From Planctomycetota bacterium (GTDB taxonomy: Bacteria; Planctomycetota; Planctomycetia; Pirellulales; UBA1268): a DNA stretch of 64,000 nt. Position 1 is the first letter of the stretch, and each line of letters starts with the position of its first letter. Under the pieces are notes generated by a model. It had not been told where the DNA came from. It ran no database searches and was given only the letters and a program-made list of their open reading frames with translations. Both the position numbers and the translations under genes were made by a program. Below, in pieces: positions 3,629 through 15,560 of this stretch. Location: assembly GCA_014238855.1 (NCBI GenBank), contig JABAAH010000001.1:141936-205935 (forward strand), given 5' to 3'.

Positions 3629-4381
3629 CTATAGCTTCAACGCTCGCTGTCGATAATGCTCATCGGTTCGATTTGAGATTCGGTCAACATCCTCAGCGCT
3701 CATAAAAGTAGGCCCTCCCAAAGCGGCTGCTCCCACAAAGATTTGTGCAGCCTTGTGAGCCATCAGCATCGCTGCTTTTACAGCCCCCGAGGTCTTGCCA
3801 AGAGTAATAAGGCCATGATTTTCGAGAAGAATCACACGAGGAGCACAGCCATAACTATCTAGATACGTATCGGTCGCAAGACGGATTGATTTCGACAGCG
3901 ATAATCCAGGATCAGTGTAAGGAATAAGCACCGAGTGAGCCCCACAGCAGACTATTTCATCAGGAAAAAGCTTTCGCGTTGCAAATTGACTCGCACGTGG
4001 TGAACAGAGAATCTGATTCACTGCGATACTATGTGTATGCCCAACAAAATGGACACCCTCTAGTGACAACAGGTACGCATGGAACAGAGTCTCGACAGAC
4101 GGTTTTTTTGCCGATGCGTCAACTCGACTCGCTAAGAGCGAGTCTTCGATTATCTGATCAGACATCGTATCTTGATCAAGCATCGGAAGAAGAGAATCAA
4201 ACCTGCAGGCAACAAGGTCCTCGCTCGTGAGTGTCTGAAGGCAACTGCCACTCGCTTTAACAAGAAACGTATGCTCGTCAACCCGAGCCGATGTGTTTCC
4301 CTCACCAAGGATTGCCAACTGTCGCCTCTCTTCACCAAGAAAATGTGAGAGTTCTAACAGCGTATCTCGAGTTGCCGACAT
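3629..4381 (-). CDS. Class II aldolase, L-fuculose-1-phosphate aldolase-like
   Basis: This is a zinc-dependent class II aldolase/adducin-fold enzyme of 250 residues (E. coli FucA has 215). The expected reaction is cleavage of L-fuculose 1-phosphate to dihydroxyacetone phosphate and L-lactaldehyde. Visible residues are GEGNTSARV (phosphate loop, about 26), catalytic Glu97 in PSVET, zinc ligands His115 and His117 in GHTHS, and His189 in ENHGLITLG. The ATG at 4381 has GGAAG a few bases upstream. It lies 63 nt downstream of fucI, in the same direction. The context argues for fuculose phosphate, but members of this family also act on rhamnulose phosphate and other sugars, and no fuculokinase is present to make the substrate. 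Confidence 0.8.
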   Translation of the reverse strand: MSATRDTLLELSHFLGEERRQLAILGEGNTSARVDEHTFLVKASGSCLQTLTSEDLVACRFDSLLPMLDQDTMSDQIIEDSLLASRVDASAKKPSVETLFHAYLLSLEGVHFVGHTHSIAVNQILCSPRASQFATRKLFPDEIVCCGAHSVLIPYTDPGLSLSKSIRLATDTYLDSYGCAPRVILLENHGLITLGKTSGAVKAAMLMAHKAAQIFVGAAALGGPTFMSAEDVDRISNRTDEHYRQRALKL

Positions 4382-4444
4382 AATGCTTCCATGACTTTAC
4401 AAAGTACAAACACTCATACCACTTCTACTTACACAACGCCTTCT

Positions 4445-6247
4445 CTACCCACGACCATAGAGGGGACCAAAGGCCTGGCAGGCTCTAAAGTCAGCTCCCT
4501 CAAGACCATCGGTGCCAAAAGCATTCCATGCACTTGGCCGAAACACTCTGTCAGCTGCCACATTATGCATGTAGACGGGAATTCTTAAGATAGATGCCAA
4601 CGTTATGAACAGGTGCCCGACGTGGCCGGCAGTCATAACACAGTGATTTGCACCCCAATGATTCATGACCTCATATGTGGAAGTGAACGCGCCTCGCCCG
4701 GTAATCGTCGGAGCGAACCAAGTGGTTGGCCATGTTGGATTCGTTCGCTGATCAAGAACGTCGTGAACAGTACCGGGAAGTTCAACCGTATAGCCTTCTG
4801 CAATCTGAATTGCTGGCCCGAGACCTGCTACTAAATTGATACGAGTCATTGTTGCCGGCATGTCTCCGAGGGTCCGATACCGGGTGCTCAGACCACCTCC
4901 AGGAAAGTATTCAGTAATTGATGGATGCCACGTTGTTGCCTGAAGGCACTTAGCTGCTTCATCATCAGTTATCTCCCAGAACGGCTTCATCGTCGGCTTG
5001 CCGTCCTGATCCATTTGTTGTCCCGTACCATCAAGTGCCGCTGGCCCAGAATTAATGAGATGGAGCAAGCCATCAGCTGCTGCCCCCTCTAACTGATAGC
5101 CTTCACACGCTCCAGCAACTGCCTCAGGACTCCAATACGTACGCAAATCAGCAAAAATTTGCGCAGTGTTGGTAAGTAAGTGCCCACACAACATAGTGGC
5201 TGCATTGAGGGCATCATTCTCGGTGGCAACGATGTAGGGTGCCCGCTTACCATTCCAGTCGAAAGAGGTGTTCAAGATGGCTTCAAGAAAATCACCATTT
5301 GGAAAATGATCAGTCCATTGCCGCTGGCCCTGAAACCCAGCGGCAATTGCACCGTGTCCCTGCGCCTGTTCCTGGAGCCCCATCTCAGCAAGTCGCTTGT
5401 TGCCAACCATCAGGTCACGAGCAATCAAACACATTTTAACCGAGTCGGACCACTCCGAATCAAGGTGTTCGCGGGATCGTTTCGTCTCGTCGCTATTGTA
5501 GTCGTCACCCTCCGGGCAGTTCTCTTTCACCCAGGCAAGAGCCTGCTCGTACTCATCATGATCAAACTGCCCCTTGTTCATGCGCCCGACAAACTCAGTC
5601 ATGTCGATGTCTTCAACTCGCATGCCAAACCATTTCTCCCAAAACGCATAATCAACCATTGAACCAGCAATACCCATTGAAGTACCGCCCATCGACAAAT
5701 AGGACTTGCCCCGCATCAACGCAGCGGCAAGCCCACATCGGGCAAAATCAAGGATTTTACTCCGCACATCAGCGGGCATATTAGCGTCACCAGCATCTTG
5801 TACATCTCGACCATATATCCCGAATGCCGGAATACCTTTCTGGCTGTGTCCAGCAAGTACTGCAGCGAGGTACACAGCACCAGGACGTTCGGTACCATTA
5901 AATCCAAATACTGCCTTCGGCCGCAACGGATCCATGTCCATGGTTTCACTTCCATAGCACCAGCAGGGAGTAACTGTCAGTGAGACTCCTACGTTTTCCT
6001 TGCGAAACAAGTCATCGCACGCACTGGCCTCAGCAACTCCACCGATACATGTGTCCGCTATGACGCAGTCTACTGGTGCACCATTTGGATAACGCAATTC
6101 ACTGGACACCAATTCCGCTACACGGCGGGCCAGATTCATCGTCTGGTCTTCCAACGATTCACGAACTCCACCAAGTCGGCCATCAATTGTTGGCCGAATA
6201 CCAATTCTCGGGAGGACACCATTCCAAATTGTGGGGACTGTACTCAT
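4445..6247 (-). CDS. fucI: L-fucose isomerase
   Basis: FucI interconverts L-fucose and L-fuculose in the cytoplasm with a divalent metal. The protein is about 600 residues, the normal family length. It begins with [20 protein letters not shown], the family's N-terminal signature, and contains [26 protein letters not shown] and, near the C-terminus, [18 protein letters not shown]. The tracked ORF starts at 6283 with a TTG; I prefer the ATG at 6247 because GAGAG lies about 8 nt upstream and the fold starts just after. It sits 52 nt downstream of fucP and 63 nt upstream of the aldolase gene, so these three are probably one operon. Confidence 0.93.
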
Positions 6248-6299
6248 GAATATTCTCTCATCAAATGAAAAATTCTCGGACAATGAAAAATCTCATCAA

Positions 6300-7715
6300 T
6301 CAGCTCTCTATGGCAGACTTCGGAGAAAACAAGGCAACCGCAAAGCCAAAAACTGCAACAACCACAAAGCAACTCAGTGGAAGAAAAAACGAGAGGCGTA
6401 CTGGCTCAAGCATCTGACCAGCGATGGTCATGCCGTCGCCATCAATTATTGCGCCTTGCAAACGTGGCATAAACGCACCACCAACAATTGCAAAAATCAA
6501 ACCCGCTGATCCTAATTTCGCATCATTTGGACTGAGTCCGTTCAGGGCAATTCCATAAATTGTTGGAAACATGAGCGACATACAAGCAGACACACCGACA
6601 AGACAGTAAAGACCCGTGAGCCCCTGCAGGAAGATCGCCCCGGCAGTCAGCAGACCACCTCCCACAGCTAGTACACCAAGCAACAAGCCGGGAGCCATGT
6701 ATTTCAGTATGAACGTACAGATAAAACGACTCGCAAGAAAAATACCCATAGCAAGAATGTTGTAATTCTGTGCTTGGGCAGCACTTAATCCCAGAAGCGT
6801 CATTCCGTAGTGAATAACAAATGTCCAAGTCATTATCTGTGCACCAACATAAAAAGTTTGCGCAATAACACCCCCGACATACTGCCAATTTGTAAATAGA
6901 TTCTGAGCAAGCGTCATAACATGAATTCCTTCATCTTCCTGCCCTGTGTCCGGCAGCCTCGAAATGACAAAAAGAAGCAGGACAGCGAGTACGACTAAAG
7001 CGATAACTACATAAGGGGTCCTGACAACTGCTAAATCATGGGAGACCATTGCCTCATACTTCTGCGGTTCCGCCGTTGCAGAATCTTCCATTGCTTTGGT
7101 TATGAGTTTATCGACATCACTGGGCAGCATCGTTGCATATTCTGGATGTCTCGCAATCTCGGCCTCTCGAAATTGTGAGACTTCAAGCCCTGGGAGAATG
7201 AACATGCTCGCCACCACCATGCCGGTAAGAGACCCAATTGGATTAAATGCTTGAGCCAGGTTTAGTCTTTGCGTTGCAGTACTTCGTGGCCCCATTGAGA
7301 GAATATACGGATTGGCCGTTGTCTCTAAGAAAGCAAGGCCAAACGTCAGAATGTAGAAACCCACAAGGAAGACATTAAATTCCATCATCAAGCTTGCTGG
7401 AATAGTCATCGCAGCACCTACTGCATATAGAAGCAGCCCAATAATAATCCCAGACTTGTACGAAACTTTCCGAATAAGCAGTGCTGCTGGAATCGCCATC
7501 GTGGCATATCCACCATAGAAGGCCCATTGCACTAAACTGCTTTGTGCATTGGAAATAAGAAATATTTCTTTAAAGGCACGAACGAGTGGATTGGTGATAT
7601 CGTTCGCAAATCCCCATAACGCAAATAATGACGTTACAAGAATAAACGGTACAACGAAGTGTTTCGGAACTACCGCCTCTTGAGACGTCGTAGTCGCTGC
7701 TTTTGTTTTCTGCAT
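6300..7715 (-). CDS. fucP: L-fucose:H+ symporter, major facilitator superfamily
   Basis: This is an inner-membrane sugar/proton symporter of the FHS family with about 12 hydrophobic segments. The N-terminus FALWGFANDITNPLV is the family signature around TM1. Later motifs are GLAFLETTANPYIL and LMFPTIYGIALNGL. The tracked start at 7811 is too early: the ATG at 7715 is preceded by GAGGAGG six bases upstream and starts directly before the first membrane span, giving 471 residues. A charged insertion of about 50 residues follows TM6, which makes the protein longer than E. coli FucP (438). It is the first gene of the fucose operon, with a 375-nt leader region upstream. Other sugars cannot be excluded, but the neighbouring fucI supports fucose. 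Confidence 0.88.
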   Translation of the reverse strand: MQKTKAATTTSQEAVVPKHFVVPFILVTSLFALWGFANDITNPLVRAFKEIFLISNAQSSLVQWAFYGGYATMAIPAALLIRKVSYKSGIIIGLLLYAVGAAMTIPASLMMEFNVFLVGFYILTFGLAFLETTANPYILSMGPRSTATQRLNLAQAFNPIGSLTGMVVASMFILPGLEVSQFREAEIARHPEYATMLPSDVDKLITKAMEDSATAEPQKYEAMVSHDLAVVRTPYVVIALVVLAVLLLFVISRLPDTGQEDEGIHVMTLAQNLFTNWQYVGGVIAQTFYVGAQIMTWTFVIHYGMTLLGLSAAQAQNYNILAMGIFLASRFICTFILKYMAPGLLLGVLAVGGGLLTAGAIFLQGLTGLYCLVGVSACMSLMFPTIYGIALNGLSPNDAKLGSAGLIFAIVGGAFMPRLQGAIIDGDGMTIAGQMLEPVRLSFFLPLSCFVVVAVFGFAVALFSPKSAIES

Positions 7716-8090
7716 GCCTAACCTCCTCAATAACCACCAATCGAATACACACGCTTCAACTGGACAGATCCCCGGACTTGCAACAGCCCTTAGTTGTAAC
7801 AAACCAGACACTACCCGCGATAGGAGGGATGCAACTTTTCACAACTTATGGCAACTCATGCAAACACCTGATTCGTCAGCAAGCAACTCAAACACACACG
7901 CTGTATTATTATTTGTGTCTTACATTGAGTAAATGAATCCAGAACAGCTACCTGTGGGACACATTTCCCGAAGCACTTGCCCGCTGGTTTTCCAATAAGT
8001 ACGGGATTTGATATTAGGGCGGTACTCAAACTAGATACCGACGATCCATAACATCGGCACGGCAGCACTGTAGACCACCATCACGAAAAC
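7716..8090. other. Intergenic region upstream of fucP
   Basis: These 375 bases should hold the promoter and any operator of the fucose operon, which reads leftwards. I see the strong Shine-Dalgarno of fucP at the left edge and an imperfect inverted repeat, CGGTA...TACCG, at about 8020-8040. I cannot assign either a regulator or a promoter from the bases alone. The ORFs tracked across this stretch have no family features and no ribosome binding sites. Confidence 0.4.
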
Positions 8091-9408: not shown

Positions 9409-10167
9409 TCATGCTGCTGCTGCATGAAGTCGTTCATGAATCTGCTCGATATCGTCAGCCTGAATGGTCGTGCCAGGCTGGCTCCCTGCAACAACTCGAG
9501 CCATACCGACAAGGCGAAAGACATCTTCCAGGATCCCACCAGTTATTTGATGAATGACCAACCACGCGCTCTCCGAGCATGCGTGGCTATTTGCAGCCAG
9601 CTGTGTTTCCACAATGCTTCGTGTCTCGGAAAGCGATAGCGGATGAATTACTGAACGCAGCAAAACCTTGTCAAGCAAGCCACGATCTCGAGATAACAAC
9701 GTCATCAAACGACCCCGTCCACCAAAAACAATTGAAGCTTTTGGCACCTGCAGCCATATCGCTTCAGAAACTGATCCCAACAGATCAACTGTTGCGAGAT
9801 GACAATTATCGACAGCGACCACGACGTTACCAGTAGTCGCGCATGCTGCAAACTGTGAAAATACTTCGGCTTGCCTCACATCAATTTGCACAACATGCGA
9901 TGCTCCATGAAGCCTCATTACAAGAGCACTCATCACCGTTGAAACACCGGAACCGCCGGGACCACAAAGAACTGCAAGGCTCGATTCCTGCAAGACGGCG
10001 TACTGCAAGCGTGCAACAGCAGCACGCTGAGAATGAAATAGTTGTATCGTGGAAGGCTGAGTTTTCCATCCACCATCCACCACTCCAGAACGTGACCCTA
10101 ACCCAGGAGCCGAAGAATAACTTATATGCGAGCCCAAAGACATCAATGGCTTTGCTTGATTCATCAT
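9409..10167 (-). CDS. ExeA-like AAA ATPase with degenerate P-loop
   Basis: The product resembles the ExeA/GspA-type AAA ATPases used in secretion and in exosortase or capsule loci. The tracked start at 10230 overlaps the upstream gene; the ATG pair at 10167/10164 has GGAGAG a few bases upstream and leaves a 14-nt gap, giving about 252 residues. The Walker A segment reads GPGGSGVST (69-77), so the invariant lysine is valine (Val75). The Walker B segment reads VVVAVDNCH (Asp120), with Asn where ExeA proteins have the catalytic Glu. Sensor-like and C-terminal helical parts are still recognisable. It is the last gene of a three-gene cluster. Hydrolysis seems unlikely, so a structural or nucleotide-sensing role is plausible. 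Confidence 0.6.
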   Translation of the reverse strand: MMNQAKPLMSLGSHISYSSAPGLGSRSGVVDGGWKTQPSTIQLFHSQRAAVARLQYAVLQESSLAVLCGPGGSGVSTVMSALVMRLHGASHVVQIDVRQAEVFSQFAACATTGNVVVAVDNCHLATVDLLGSVSEAIWLQVPKASIVFGGRGRLMTLLSRDRGLLDKVLLRSVIHPLSLSETRSIVETQLAANSHACSESAWLVIHQITGGILEDVFRLVGMARVVAGSQPGTTIQADDIEQIHERLHAAAA

Positions 10168-10181
10168 CGTACTCTCCAACA

Positions 10182-10940
10182 TTAGGCAACACGGCAGGAA
10201 TTTGCTGAATCTTGCGAACATGAACCACATTCCATCTCACCTGAGAAGGTTACAACCTCGCCAATTGGGAAGACGCCTAGCTCTCCAAGGAGTTGCTGCC
10301 GGTGAGGGCAGGGCGGCACGTCCGCGTGACGAACTAACAGCACCGCATCGCAGCCAAAAACTCGCAATGCCATCTCTCTCCTTCGGAACGGGCCACGAGT
10401 AAACCAAATACCTGCGTCTACCAAGACAATGCTTTGTCTGCTACCTGAGACACTAGTACCTGCTCGATCTCGATGCCACGCCACCGACTGAGAGTCATCA
10501 ATTAATTCACACCAAAGCTCTTGCATCGAATTCAGGCATCGCACCTGCCAACCAGACGCACTGAGGATGGTGAAAAGACCTTGCGCGATCGTTGTTCGTC
10601 CCTCCTGAACCCGATGGCCAGCAATTGCAATGATACGATGACCACTTTCCTGAGCTTCAACAACGCGATCAGTGATTGCTTTCCACTGCGCTGGCAACGC
10701 TGCCAATAAACCTGCCAGCGTATCGCTGGAATTTTTATCACTACAACCTGCTTCGCCTTCCGATGCGGCTCGATTCTTACTTACCACTTCTGTTGTCCGA
10801 GGGCTCTTCTCACCGCTCTGTTCTGTAATTGAGACAGCAGTGACTTCTTCTGACTCCAGACCTGCCGCCTCTGACACACCCTGTCGTGTTATCAACACTT
10901 GTTGGTCTATAAAACTTTGATCGAGGCGGTCGAATTCCAT
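10182..10940 (-). CDS. CpsD/MinD-like P-loop protein with Lys-to-Arg Walker A
   Basis: This 252-residue protein has about 100 low-complexity N-terminal residues, then a fold resembling the tyrosine-autokinase/MinD group: IIAIAGHRVQEGRTTIAQGL (103-122) is the P-loop region. The normal lysine of GEGKTT-type loops is Arg115. SIVLVDAGIW contains Asp175 in the Walker A' position. The C-terminus is Cys-rich (MECGSCS) rather than the tyrosine cluster of BY-kinases, so kinase activity is doubtful. Its ATG directly follows the stop of the upstream gene (TAAATG), which implies translational coupling. The partner protein downstream has also lost its P-loop lysine. Family assignment is moderate; function is unknown. 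Confidence 0.55.
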   Translation of the reverse strand: MEFDRLDQSFIDQQVLITRQGVSEAAGLESEEVTAVSITEQSGEKSPRTTEVVSKNRAASEGEAGCSDKNSSDTLAGLLAALPAQWKAITDRVVEAQESGHRIIAIAGHRVQEGRTTIAQGLFTILSASGWQVRCLNSMQELWCELIDDSQSVAWHRDRAGTSVSGSRQSIVLVDAGIWFTRGPFRRREMALRVFGCDAVLLVRHADVPPCPHRQQLLGELGVFPIGEVVTFSGEMECGSCSQDSANSCRVA

Positions 10941-11555
10941 TTACTTCCTGCTCTTCTGTTGGTGGTAAGACGTAACAGGGGTTTCCGCAAACCGAATAGA
11001 ATTTATTTCTAATGATTCCATTTTCATGACAGGCTGCTGCTCAACAAAAAAGACACGCATCCAGATGACTGCTGCCACCAAAGACAGCACCCATAATGTC
11101 AGCGACGGCCTCGATGCGCCCGAAGGTTGCATTTTTTTCTTGGGCCTAGGCACGCTGGGTTGATTCGTGAGGAGACCTCCTCCATTCCTATTAGCCAAGC
11201 CCCGCTTCTTTGTCTGTCGCTGATTTGTCACAGGCTTTAATACGCCGTCATGCTGAGACTTCTGCTCATTACAAAAAGGTATGGTATCTGGAGGTTTTTT
11301 TTTCACAGGATTTGGCCCAATACTGTCACGAGGAGCGAATTCACAAGAAGCTCTCTGTGTACTCTGTGCCAGTTCCGCATCGTGTCCTTTAAGACACTCC
11401 GATGAACCCTTTCCGTCGTTCAGCATGTTCGACACGTACGTCGATTGTGCTCCCTCTACCGACCTGAACCTACGAACATATTTATCACATCCATTTTCTG
11501 GAAGTGGGTCGTGTTCCAATTGTCGTACATGCGGAAATACTGTGATTAAATCCAT
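10941..11555 (-). CDS. Single-span membrane protein of unknown function
   Basis: I do not recognise this 204-residue protein. About 150 polar residues, rich in Pro, Lys, Gln and Ser, precede one hydrophobic span (about 151-171, LTLWVLSLVAAVIWMRVFF), followed by 33 residues outside. The lysines at 139-141 just before the span predict a cytoplasmic N-terminus. This is the topology of a small membrane anchor for cytoplasmic partners. Its stop abuts the ATG of the next gene (TAAATG), so it is the first gene of a three-gene unit with two ATPase-like proteins. In exosortase and capsule loci a chain-length or anchor protein precedes the CpsD and ExeA genes; this could be a reduced version of it. Confidence 0.5.
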   Translation of the reverse strand: MDLITVFPHVRQLEHDPLPENGCDKYVRRFRSVEGAQSTYVSNMLNDGKGSSECLKGHDAELAQSTQRASCEFAPRDSIGPNPVKKKPPDTIPFCNEQKSQHDGVLKPVTNQRQTKKRGLANRNGGGLLTNQPSVPRPKKKMQPSGASRPSLTLWVLSLVAAVIWMRVFFVEQQPVMKMESLEINSIRFAETPVTSYHQQKSRK

Positions 11556-11867
11556 AACTCTCCTACAGAAAATTTTCGTCTAAAACAAGACAAAGCCTTT
11601 AGAGACTTCGCTTCACTTCGTCAGAGTTTGACCTAACGTCAAGCGGGAGCAGTTATTCAGTTTTTCCCGAACCACCACTACATCCAAGGCCACTCGCCCA
11701 AACCCTCAAGCCCAAACCCTCAAATTGACGACTACATCCGGACTGCGTCTCAAATAAAGGGGGGAATGCTAAGCGGTATCCGAACGTTAGAAACTTGCCT
11801 ATACTACTATGAAAACAGTAGTTTCTTTGAGTTCAACAACGACCCCCACGACAAACCAGAAAGCCCG
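11556..11867. other. Divergent intergenic region before metH
   Basis: This region separates the leftward ATPase cluster from rightward metH and must hold promoters for both. It contains a 14-bp perfect tandem duplication (11696-11723). I looked for cobalamin, SAM and SAH riboswitch cores, which often precede metH, and do not recognise any. The first 102 bases of the tracked metH ORF (11766-11867) are included here because I favour the ATG at 11868. Confidence 0.4.
11696..11723. repeat. Two 14-bp tandem copies
   Basis: GCCCAAACCCTCAA occurs twice with no gap, upstream of metH. It is perfect and short. It belongs to the same class of short tandem duplications found after exbB, fabF and the DUF3127 gene, but it does not touch a stop codon. 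Confidence 0.9.
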
Positions 11868-14800
11868 ATGGAGATTACTAATAGCAGATCGACAGAATTT
11901 CTTGATCTTCTCAATGACCGAATTGCCATCCTTGATGGCGCTATGGGCACAATGGTTCATACTCTCGGCTTAGACGAGCAAGGCTTTCGAGGGAAACCTT
12001 TTCAGGATCATGGTCGAGATCTCAAGAATTGCATCGATGTCTTGACATTGTCTCAACCAGATGCCATCCGTCAAATTCACGCTTCGTTCCTTGAGGCTGG
12101 AGCTGATATTGTTGAGACAAATACATTCGGTGCTACATCGGTTGCGTTAGCAGACTTTGGGCTCTCGGACCAAACCCGAGAACTCAATCTGGCTGCCTGC
12201 AAAATTGCACGAGAAGCAGCTGACGCAGCGACGGCCAAATCGCCTCATAAACCTAGATTTATTGCCGGTTCTATGGGGCCAACAAATAAGCAACTTTCTA
12301 TTGCTGGAAATGTGGCTGACCCTGGACATCGTGATGTCACTTTCGATGAGATGGTTGCCTGCTACAGGGAGCAAGTTGAGGCACTCCTTGAAGGCGGCGT
12401 CGACCTTCTCCTTGCAGAAACAGCATTCGATACGCTGGTTCTCAAAGCAGCACTATTTGCAATTGAAGAAGCATTTCAATCAACAGGTATTGCTGTACCA
12501 ATTATGGCATCATTTACTGTTTTCGAAGGAGGCCGAACGCTCTCTGCCCAGACCGTTGAAGCATGCTTTCAAAGTATTTCACATGCCAATCTTATAAGCG
12601 CCGGGATCAACTGTGCCCTCGGGCCTGAGAAACTACGTCCATACCTGGCAGACCTTTCTCGCATCTGCCCCCAGATGGTGAGCTGCTACCCTAACGCCGG
12701 ACTTCCAAATGCTTACGGTGGCTTTGATGAAACTCCCGAAATGATGGCCTCGGTCATAGGTGAGTTTGCGAAAGATGGTTTTCTGAACATTGTTGGTGGA
12801 TGTTGTGGCACAACTCCTGACCACATTCGCGCAATTTCTGAAGCTGTTTCACCTCACCCCACCAGAAAACCAGCAAAGCCGCTGCGGTTGAGTCGTTACT
12901 CTGGCCTTGAGCTTCTTGAAGTGCGTCCTGAGAGTAGTTTCACAATAGTTGGTGAACGCACGAACGTAACCGGTTCAAAAGCATTTTCTCGACTCATTAA
13001 AGAAGAGAACTATGAAGCCGCTCTAAGCGTCGCTCGGCAGCAGGTAGAAAATGGCGCAAATTTAATCGATATAAATGTCGACGAAGGAATGATCGACGGG
13101 CCAGCAGTCATGACGAAATTCCTGACACTGATCTCAAGCGAACCAGACATTTCCCGCGTCCCCATCATGATCGACTCATCTCGCTGGGAAGTACTTGGAG
13201 CTGGACTGAAGTGCATCCAAGGCAAGGGTGTTGTTAACTCCATTAGCATGAAAGAGGGTGAGGAAACGTTCCTCAAGCAAGCCCGCATCGTCCGAAGTTA
13301 TGGAGCAGCTGTAGTCGTCATGGCATTTGACGAAGAAGGCCAAGCCACAGACGTCGAAAACCGAGTGGCCATATGCGAGCGAGCCTACCGCCTCCTTACA
13401 GAAAAAGCTGACTTCCCTCCAGAAGATATCATTTTCGACCCCAACATTCTTACCGTTGCAACCGGTATGGAGGAACATAATCGCTATGCAATAAACTTTA
13501 TTGAGGCAACGCGTCAAATTAAAGAGAAAATGCCCCTGGTGAAAATATCTGGTGGCGTAAGCAACATTTCGTTCTCATTTCGAGGCAATAATGCTGTTCG
13601 CGAGGCGATGCATGCGGCCTTTCTCTACCATGCCATTAAAGCCGGCATGGATATGGGCATTGTCAATGCAGGACAACTCGCGCTCTATGAAGAAATTACT
13701 CCTGAACTTCTTGAAAGAATTGAAGACGTTCTCTTTGATCGCCGAACAGATGCAACCGACAGATTGATTGAATTTGCAGAAACCGTGAAGGGTGAAGGAG
13801 GCATCAATTCTGAAAAAATTGATGAGTGGCGTGAATTTGATGTTGATGGTCGTCTAGCCCACGCATTATTGAAAGGCCTTACGGATCATATTGAAGACGA
13901 TATTGAAGAGGCTCGAAAGCAATACGACACAGGCCTGAAAATCATTGAAGGCCCACTTATGAGCGGCATGCAAATCGTTGGCGACCTCTTCGGTGAAGGC
14001 AAGATGTTTCTTCCTCAAGTTGTGAAAAGTGCTCGTGTCATGAAGAAGGCTGTCGCGCGCCTCCTGCCCTACATGGAAGAGGAACGAAAATCACAAGGTG
14101 CCGCTGCGAAAAAGCGTGGTCGCATTTTATTAGCAACTGTCAAAGGTGATGTTCACGACATTGGAAAAAACATTGTTGGTGTCGTTTTAGGGTGTAACAA
14201 CTATGAGATCATCGATATTGGCGTTATGGTCCCTTGTGCGACGATCATCGATAAAGCCCGGGAAGAAAATGTAGACATAGTAGGTCTTTCTGGCCTTATC
14301 ACCCCGAGCCTTGATGAGATGGTACAGGTCGCAAAAGAGTTTGAACACGAGAAGTTCGAAGTCCCACTTCTGATCGGTGGTGCCACTACCTCGGCTCGGC
14401 ACACTGCTGTTAAAATTGCGCCTAAATACTCAGGAAGCATCATTCATGTGACAGATGCATCACGTGCAGCCGGCGTGGTTGAAAAATTACTCAACCCGAA
14501 TTCCCAAGAAGCATTCGCGATAGCGAATCGTGAAGCTCAGGCAAGAGATTTAGCGAATTTCCAAAAGCGTCAGCAAGTAAAACTTGTGCCATATAAAACC
14601 GCTATCGAAAAACGATGGACGACTGATTGGTCATCGGCTGAAATTGAAAAGCCTAGTTTTCTTGGCCTGCGACCACTTCCAGTGGTCTCACTTGAAGAAC
14701 TTATTCCTTTTATCGACTGGTCTCCTTTTTTCATGGCGTGGGAATTAAAAGGTAAGTATCCAGGAATTTTTGATGACGCAATTGTGGGCAGTGAGGCCAA

Positions 14801-15560
14801 GAAACTTTTTGAAGATGCGCAAAGACTTCTTGATGAAATTGTTTCCAAACAAAAGCTAGAAGCCCGAGGAGTTTACGGATTCTTCCCGGCTAACAGTGAC
14901 GGGGATGACATCATTCTTTTTGATGATGAATCTCGTAAAAATGAGACCGGGCGGATTTGTACCCTCAGGCAGCAATGGGAACGTCGTGGCCAAGACACTT
15001 TTTATGCCTTAGCCGACTTCATTGCTCCGATGTCGAGTGGTCGAGCCGACTACATTGGTGCCTTTGCATGTACAACTGGGCATGGATGTGAAGAACTCGC
15101 GAAAGAGTTCGACAAAGACCACGATGACTATAACTCCATTATGGTAAAGGCCCTCGCTGACCGGCTCGCTGAAGCATTCGCCGAATGGCTGCATCAGAAG
15201 GCTCGGCAGGAATGGGGATTCGGAAAACAAGAGCAACTCAACACGGATGAGCTTATTTCAGAAAAATATCGTGGAATTCGTCCGGCGCCCGGTTATCCGG
15301 CCTGTCCTGATCACACAGAAAAACCCGGTCTTTTCCAGTTACTCGATGCCAAAAATGTTGCTGGTATGAATCTCACTGAGAGTTTTGCAATGACTCCAGC
15401 GGCGAGTGTCTGTGGACTCTACTTTGGGCACCCAGAAAGCCGATACTTCGCCGTAGACAGAATAACACGTGAACAAGTTGAATCATATGCTGTCAGGAAA
15501 GGTATGCCAGAGCCAGAGGTCGAGCGATGGCTCGCCCCGAACCTTGGATACGATCCTTGA
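11868..15560 (+). CDS. metH: Cobalamin-dependent methionine synthase
   Basis: MetH transfers the methyl group of 5-methyltetrahydrofolate to homocysteine through methylcobalamin. From the ATG at 11868 the protein is 1230 residues (E. coli 1227), so this start is preferred to the tracked 11766. All modules are present: homocysteine-binding barrel beginning ILDGAMGTM, with zinc cysteines in NCALGP and [10 protein letters not shown]; pterin-binding domain with [12 protein letters not shown]; cobalamin cap and binding domains with GDVHDIGKN, where His763 is the lower axial ligand; and the C-terminal AdoMet reactivation domain with [12 protein letters not shown]. The gene stands alone with xerC/D downstream. 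Its use implies access to cobalamin by synthesis or uptake encoded elsewhere. Confidence 0.97.

Follow-up and report, generated by a model that had tools for sequence, protein, structure and literature searches.

A planctomycete three-gene operon in which a CpsD-like and an ExeA-like protein separately lost the P-loop lysine

We describe an operon of Pirellulales planctomycetes that encodes a single-span membrane protein (ORF1), a CpsD/BY-kinase-like protein (ORF2) and an ExeA/GspA-like AAA+ domain (ORF3), and in which the two P-loop proteins lost their Walker A lysines independently: ORF2 early and generally, ORF3 later and in particular lineages. The window analyzed here, a stretch of 64,000 nucleotides from a Planctomycetota bacterium (assembly GCA_014238855.1, contig JABAAH010000001.1), carries a copy in which both lysines are gone. 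The anatomy of the operon, its conservation, the selection acting on it, the order of the losses and the likely ancestral gene order can be read directly from the genomes compared below. Beyond this, we tentatively propose that a widely conserved envelope complex built of tyrosine-kinase and ExeA folds, once ATP-driven, was turned, stepwise and several times independently, into a scaffold that needs no nucleotide and serves some purpose other than exporting polysaccharide. The literature searched contains no description of the operon, and in this sense the initial annotation's suggestion of an undescribed system stands; its component parts are nevertheless of known kinds.

Anatomy of the operon

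The three genes occupy the minus strand as a tight unit. ORF1 and ORF2 abut at 10941/10940, and the most likely start of ORF3, which yields the Val75 numbering used here, is at 10167 (MMNQ...), 14 nt 3' of the ORF2 stop, within an open frame that reaches 10230. The features are as follows.

11766 to 15560, plus strand: metH, the divergent neighbor of the trio; a synteny marker outside the unit
10941 to 11555, minus strand: ORF1, 204 amino acids; one transmembrane span by hydropathy, predicted cytoplasmic N-terminus, and a short C-terminus predicted to be periplasmic
11526 to 11549, minus strand: ORF1 N-terminal motif LITVFPHV, read by eye; the local form of the ARFP/LRLPD motif of its relatives
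11043 to 11099, minus strand: ORF1 transmembrane segment, residues 153–171; hydropathy 2.12 over 19 residues
10182 to 10940, minus strand: ORF2, 252 amino acids; CpsD/BY-kinase-like P-loop protein without the P-loop lysine
10590 to 10619, minus strand: degenerate Walker A of ORF2, GHRVQEGRTT; Arg115 is codon CGA at 10596–10598
10410 to 10427, minus strand: Walker B of ORF2, VLVDAG; Asp175 retained
9409 to 10167, minus strand: ORF3, ExeA/GspA-like AAA+ domain; 252 amino acids from the start at 10167
9937 to 9963, minus strand: degenerate Walker A of ORF3, GPGGSGVST; Val75 is codon GTT at 9943–9945
9805 to 9810, minus strand: Walker B Asp120-Asn121 of ORF3; the second position is glutamate in 20 of 20 homologues from other families

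The three reading frames, their strand and their close coupling to a one-span membrane protein are as first annotated. So are the three substitutions (Arg115 for the ORF2 P-loop lysine, Val75 for that of ORF3, and Asn121 for the ORF3 Walker B glutamate). The same substitutions recur in relatives from other MAGs, which excludes a sequencing error at these codons.

ORF1 belongs to no Pfam family, and neither it nor its homologues match T2SSB in Pfam at E-values up to 10. Most of its relatives carry an N-terminal [VI][LI][AIL]R[LIF]P motif (the window's copy failed the regular expression used), and an ARLxGxI ending is common among ORF1 proteins from the order. Elsewhere in the window (3629–7811), three minus-strand genes resemble a fucose-use cluster by sequence, namely an aldolase-like, an L-fucose isomerase-like and a FucP-like gene.

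ORF2, a probable CpsD-like pseudo-enzyme

The P-loop lysine is present in none of 81 distinct ORF2 homologues. Arginine takes its place in 53 and cysteine in 16, and alanine, valine, serine, glycine and threonine are also seen at the site. Walker B aspartate is retained in 78 of the 81. The C-terminal tyrosine cluster is missing, as 78 of the 81 proteins have no tyrosine in their last 25 residues and the other 3 have a single one, and in the window's family the Walker A' aspartate segment is missing too. An apparent GAGKT in the ORF2 of one locus (L103) lies in a linker; the actual P-loop of that protein reads GEGRTT.

The sequence matches of the window's short ORF2 are weak, but homologues of it from across the order match TIGR01007/TIGR03018, just as those of ORF3 match TIGR03015, so that the initial CpsD-like and ExeA-like assignments hold. 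The structural model of ORF2 is confident in the core and has long disordered parts. BY-kinase domains lead its fold matches in the PDB, with BceF, CapA/CapB chimeras and Wzc at the top, at TM-scores of only about 0.4.

A general drift of planctomycete P-loops was considered and rejected, because Wzc-like proteins, ParA-like proteins and other ExeA paralogues keep the lysine. Within the same class, 12 of the 13 Wzc-like proteins whose P-loop was resolved (five further ones, unresolved by pattern, lie outside this count) retain it in GDGKS or EGKTT motifs, often together with tyrosine-rich tails, and KGGVGKTT is intact in ParA-like proteins from the window's family. The sole exception among the 13 is a Wzc-like frame of 769 amino acids in family f7 (L218:6225-8531), which reads EGRTT for EGKTT and has no tyrosine tail. 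Since ORF2 lacks the lysine throughout while the Wzc-like proteins of the class keep it, we place the change of ORF2 into a pseudo-enzyme before the divergence of the order. The ORF2-ORF3 pair is also found in f21, a second group of family rank within the class, with a one-span ORF upstream in most cases; the f21 ORF2 reads SCHRAEGRTT, and the loss probably predates the split of this group as well.

Probable origin from a polysaccharide operon

In a planctomycetote from outside the class (locus L252 of G371), the gene order is Wza-like, chain-length determinant (TIGR03007), CpsD-like (TIGR03018) and ExeA-like (TIGR03015), and the CpsD-like protein carries EGKTT, with the lysine, and a tyrosine tail. 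A search of the phylum at a strict cut-off returned three matches, two of them outside the class and both with the lysine. Because the trio has the same order as L252, with ORF1 in the place of the chain-length determinant, it probably descends from an XrtA-type polysaccharide operon. The earlier view of the operon as a relic of a capsule or exosortase apparatus is thus well supported by gene order and family matches.

A second arrangement is seen in family f22. There, in 4 of 5 loci (L254–L257), the gene immediately ahead of a canonical ExeA orthologue encodes a one-span protein with WLxGxI or a similar motif at its end. These loci leave no room for ORF2 and represent a two-gene form of the operon. 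This suggests that the tether and the ExeA protein are the core, and that ORF2 is either an added subunit or was lost in f22.

The operon's present role in the window's genome is probably not capsule export, because neither Wza nor Wzz nor an exosortase was detected in that genome (91% complete). Other members of the genus keep the operon with no Wzz or exosortase detected (G002, G007 and G008) or with neither Wza nor Wzz detected (G004), and the 62–91% completeness of the genus MAGs limits each of these absences. They nonetheless bear on the idea of a derived polysaccharide regulator akin to CpsC/CpsD (CapA/CapB), in which the tether and the CpsD-like protein would control a glycan polymerase or exporter and ExeA would be accessory. 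The likely ancestral gene order, the family matches in L252 and the BY-kinase domains heading the ORF2 fold matches all speak for such a regulator, but the undetected export and exosortase genes and the missing tyrosine tail leave it on the unlikely side.

ORF3 lost catalytic residues later and repeatedly

Outside the window's family, ORF3 is a full ExeA-type AAA+ protein with GKT/S and DEAH motifs (TIGR03015 E-values 1e-46 to 1e-53), and both the lysine and the Walker B glutamate are canonical in 20 of 20 loci. In the window's family, an N-terminal stretch of ORF3 is missing. The window's protein scores 23.8 bits against TIGR03015 over a partial match, compared with 158–182 bits at full length for homologues from the order and a curated cut-off of 324.5. 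Within the family, the P-loop residue is lysine in 35 proteins, valine in 13 and threonine in 13, and the position of the Walker B glutamate holds aspartate in 47 of 61 and asparagine in 8 of 61. On the ORF3 tree, at least five switches between lysine and other residues are required, a parsimony minimum on a tree of the quick kind; four of them, for the lysine group, are forced by well supported branches. On the same tree, all 8 distinct homologues of the window's genus carry valine. Two other ExeA-like proteins encoded in the genome that holds the operon keep the lysine, and the ORF3 loss is therefore specific to the operon. An ExeA-like protein of the same genome (L219:7481-9370, with relatives in L222, L226 and L228) has a canonical P-loop and a long acidic C-terminal tail with the conserved end YSRLFARLRRGG.

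Judged by their motifs, ORF2 and ORF3 are both without lysine only in some lineages of the window's family, and elsewhere the trio mostly has one canonical ATPase. The initial annotation had proposed a complex that works without ATP hydrolysis. This is plausible for the window's lineage but not for the operon generally, given the intact ORF3 lysine and glutamate of the other families.

The model of ORF3 is a confident AAA+ domain (mean pLDDT 86.8) with structural matches to RuvB, RFC and MuB. Despite the lysine losses, the P-loop glycines and the serine/threonine are retained, and because of this these P-loops could still bind nucleotide. The residues that replace the ORF3 lysine are only valine and threonine, never arginine, glutamate or glutamine, a pattern that we read as unlike free decay. 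One may further ask whether the substituted P-loops (with arginine in ORF2) belong to variant ATPases that still bind nucleotide and hydrolyze it slowly. The retained P-loop backbone, serine/threonine and Walker B aspartate would accord with this, as would the below-cut-off match of ORF2 relatives to an NCBIfam family of variant ATPases with a KGGVGR motif. Arginine, however, is not fixed in ORF2, where cysteine and five other residues occupy the same site, and the window's family lacks both the Walker A' aspartate segment of ORF2 and the Walker B glutamate of ORF3; we regard slow hydrolysis as doubtful.

Conservation and selection

Among the genomes of the window's Pirellulales family, a profile search detected ORF2 in 65 of 72, or in 33 of 34 when only the near-complete ones are counted. 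The trio co-occurs very widely among the homologues. ORF3 follows ORF2 in 21 of 21 family loci first read, usually divergent from metH and with a one-span ORF1 upstream in most, and the pair is present in all 20 loci read from other Pirellulales families, nearly all with a one-span ORF1 and most adjoining metH. Overall, about 100 non-redundant loci have a one-span ORF upstream of ORF2. Viral contigs yielded no copies of the trio. Although metH adjoins the trio in the majority of Pirellulales loci, a functional linkage was rejected in favor of mere synteny because in f21 it does not. In one locus (L036, G003), metH is split into two ORFs (591 and 593 amino acids), reflecting a frameshift or an assembly error.

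The near universality of the operon in the family and the order would also suit a positioning device. Here ORF2, which falls in the MinD/ParA/CpsD superfamily, would be locked by its lysine loss, mark a pole or bud site and recruit ExeA through ORF1. Against this, the f22 loci keep the ORF1-like and ExeA genes without ORF2, and such a device appears quite improbable to us.

For the window and three close relatives, dN/dS across all pairs ranges from 0.17 to 0.37 for ORF2 and ORF3, with about 0.2 typical, and from 0.32 to 0.55 for ORF1; these are simple Nei-Gojobori counts in which several distant pairs are near saturation. ORF2 and ORF3 are therefore both clearly under purifying selection. The substitutions themselves are conserved to unequal degrees: the ORF2 loss is common to the family, the order and the second group, whereas the ORF3 loss is lineage-specific and not its equivalent. 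Local decay, in which an unused operon would be pseudogenizing in a shrinking genome, might explain several lysine and glutamate losses inside a small-genome family but is largely refuted, and highly improbable, in the face of intact frames, purifying selection, retention in nearly every near-complete genome, conserved P-loop glycines and serine/threonine, and the narrow choice of residues at the ORF3 lysine site.

A possible role in envelope assembly

Among the near-complete family genomes, a T2SS/T4P-type ATPase occurs in 34 of 34, a secretin in 32 of 34 and Wza in 28 of 34. Based on the occurrence of the ATPase and the secretin and on the organization of the operon, we favor, as a tentative analogy, an inner-membrane tether and an AAA+ adaptor that work like GspB and GspA. 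Because T2SS/T4P parts are near universal in the family, their occurrence together with the operon says little in favor of such a role. Two genomes (G004 and G012) have the operon and no detected secretin, and among the neighbor genes viewed, whose annotation was unsystematic, none next to the operon stood out as encoding a secretin.

We infer a physical complex with a GspAB-like task that, in the window's lineage, proceeds without hydrolysis. ORF1 would serve as its one-span tether, with the cytoplasmic N-terminal motif holding both P-loop proteins and the short periplasmic tail, which in other families is an ARLxGxI-type strand, contacting an envelope partner. The AAA+ domain of ORF3 would remodel or position this partner, and ORF2 would act as a fixed structural adaptor. 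Most plausibly, the trio would aid a T2SS/T4P-like secretin or another envelope-spanning assembly. The ancestral XrtA-type operon would have encoded a chain-length determinant, a tyrosine kinase and an ExeA-like ATPase, of which the kinase function was the first to go. ORF3 then also lost its catalytic glutamate and, repeatedly, the P-loop lysine within the small-genome family of the window, and the complex in the window's lineage is probably purely structural.

The same operon thus occurs with one P-loop lysine or with none, and a likely ancestor with two lies outside the class. With this natural series one can study the part that ATP hydrolysis plays in ExeA-type assemblies, and the reasons why they can do without it, in a near-universal and uncharacterized envelope operon of bacteria with unusual cell biology. 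The planctomycete group includes culturable, genetically tractable members.

Comparison with known systems

The trio shares with the XrtA/PEP-CTERM module (TIGR03007-TIGR03018-TIGR03015) the order membrane protein, CpsD-like protein, ExeA-like protein, and its relatives match these families. By contrast, the trio has a one-span tether where that module has its chain-length determinant, lacks the kinase lysine and tyrosine tail and scores far under the curated cut-offs, and neither Wza nor an exosortase was detected in the window's genome. Like the BY-kinase pairs CapA/CapB and CpsC/CpsD, the trio places a membrane protein before a CpsD-like protein, yet it has a single membrane span and neither the Walker A lysine nor the C-terminal tyrosine cluster. 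The GspA/GspB (ExeA/ExeB) secretin-assembly pair differs from the trio in its T2SSB/HR domain, which is not detectable in ORF1 (a search for ORF1-GspB homology by Pfam found none), in its peptidoglycan-binding domain, which ORF3 lacks, and in having no CpsD-like subunit. GspA can, however, occur without its periplasmic part, and GspB in small forms that lack HR (PMC9239104). As in GspA/GspB, a one-span membrane protein is paired in the trio with an ExeA-type AAA+ domain.
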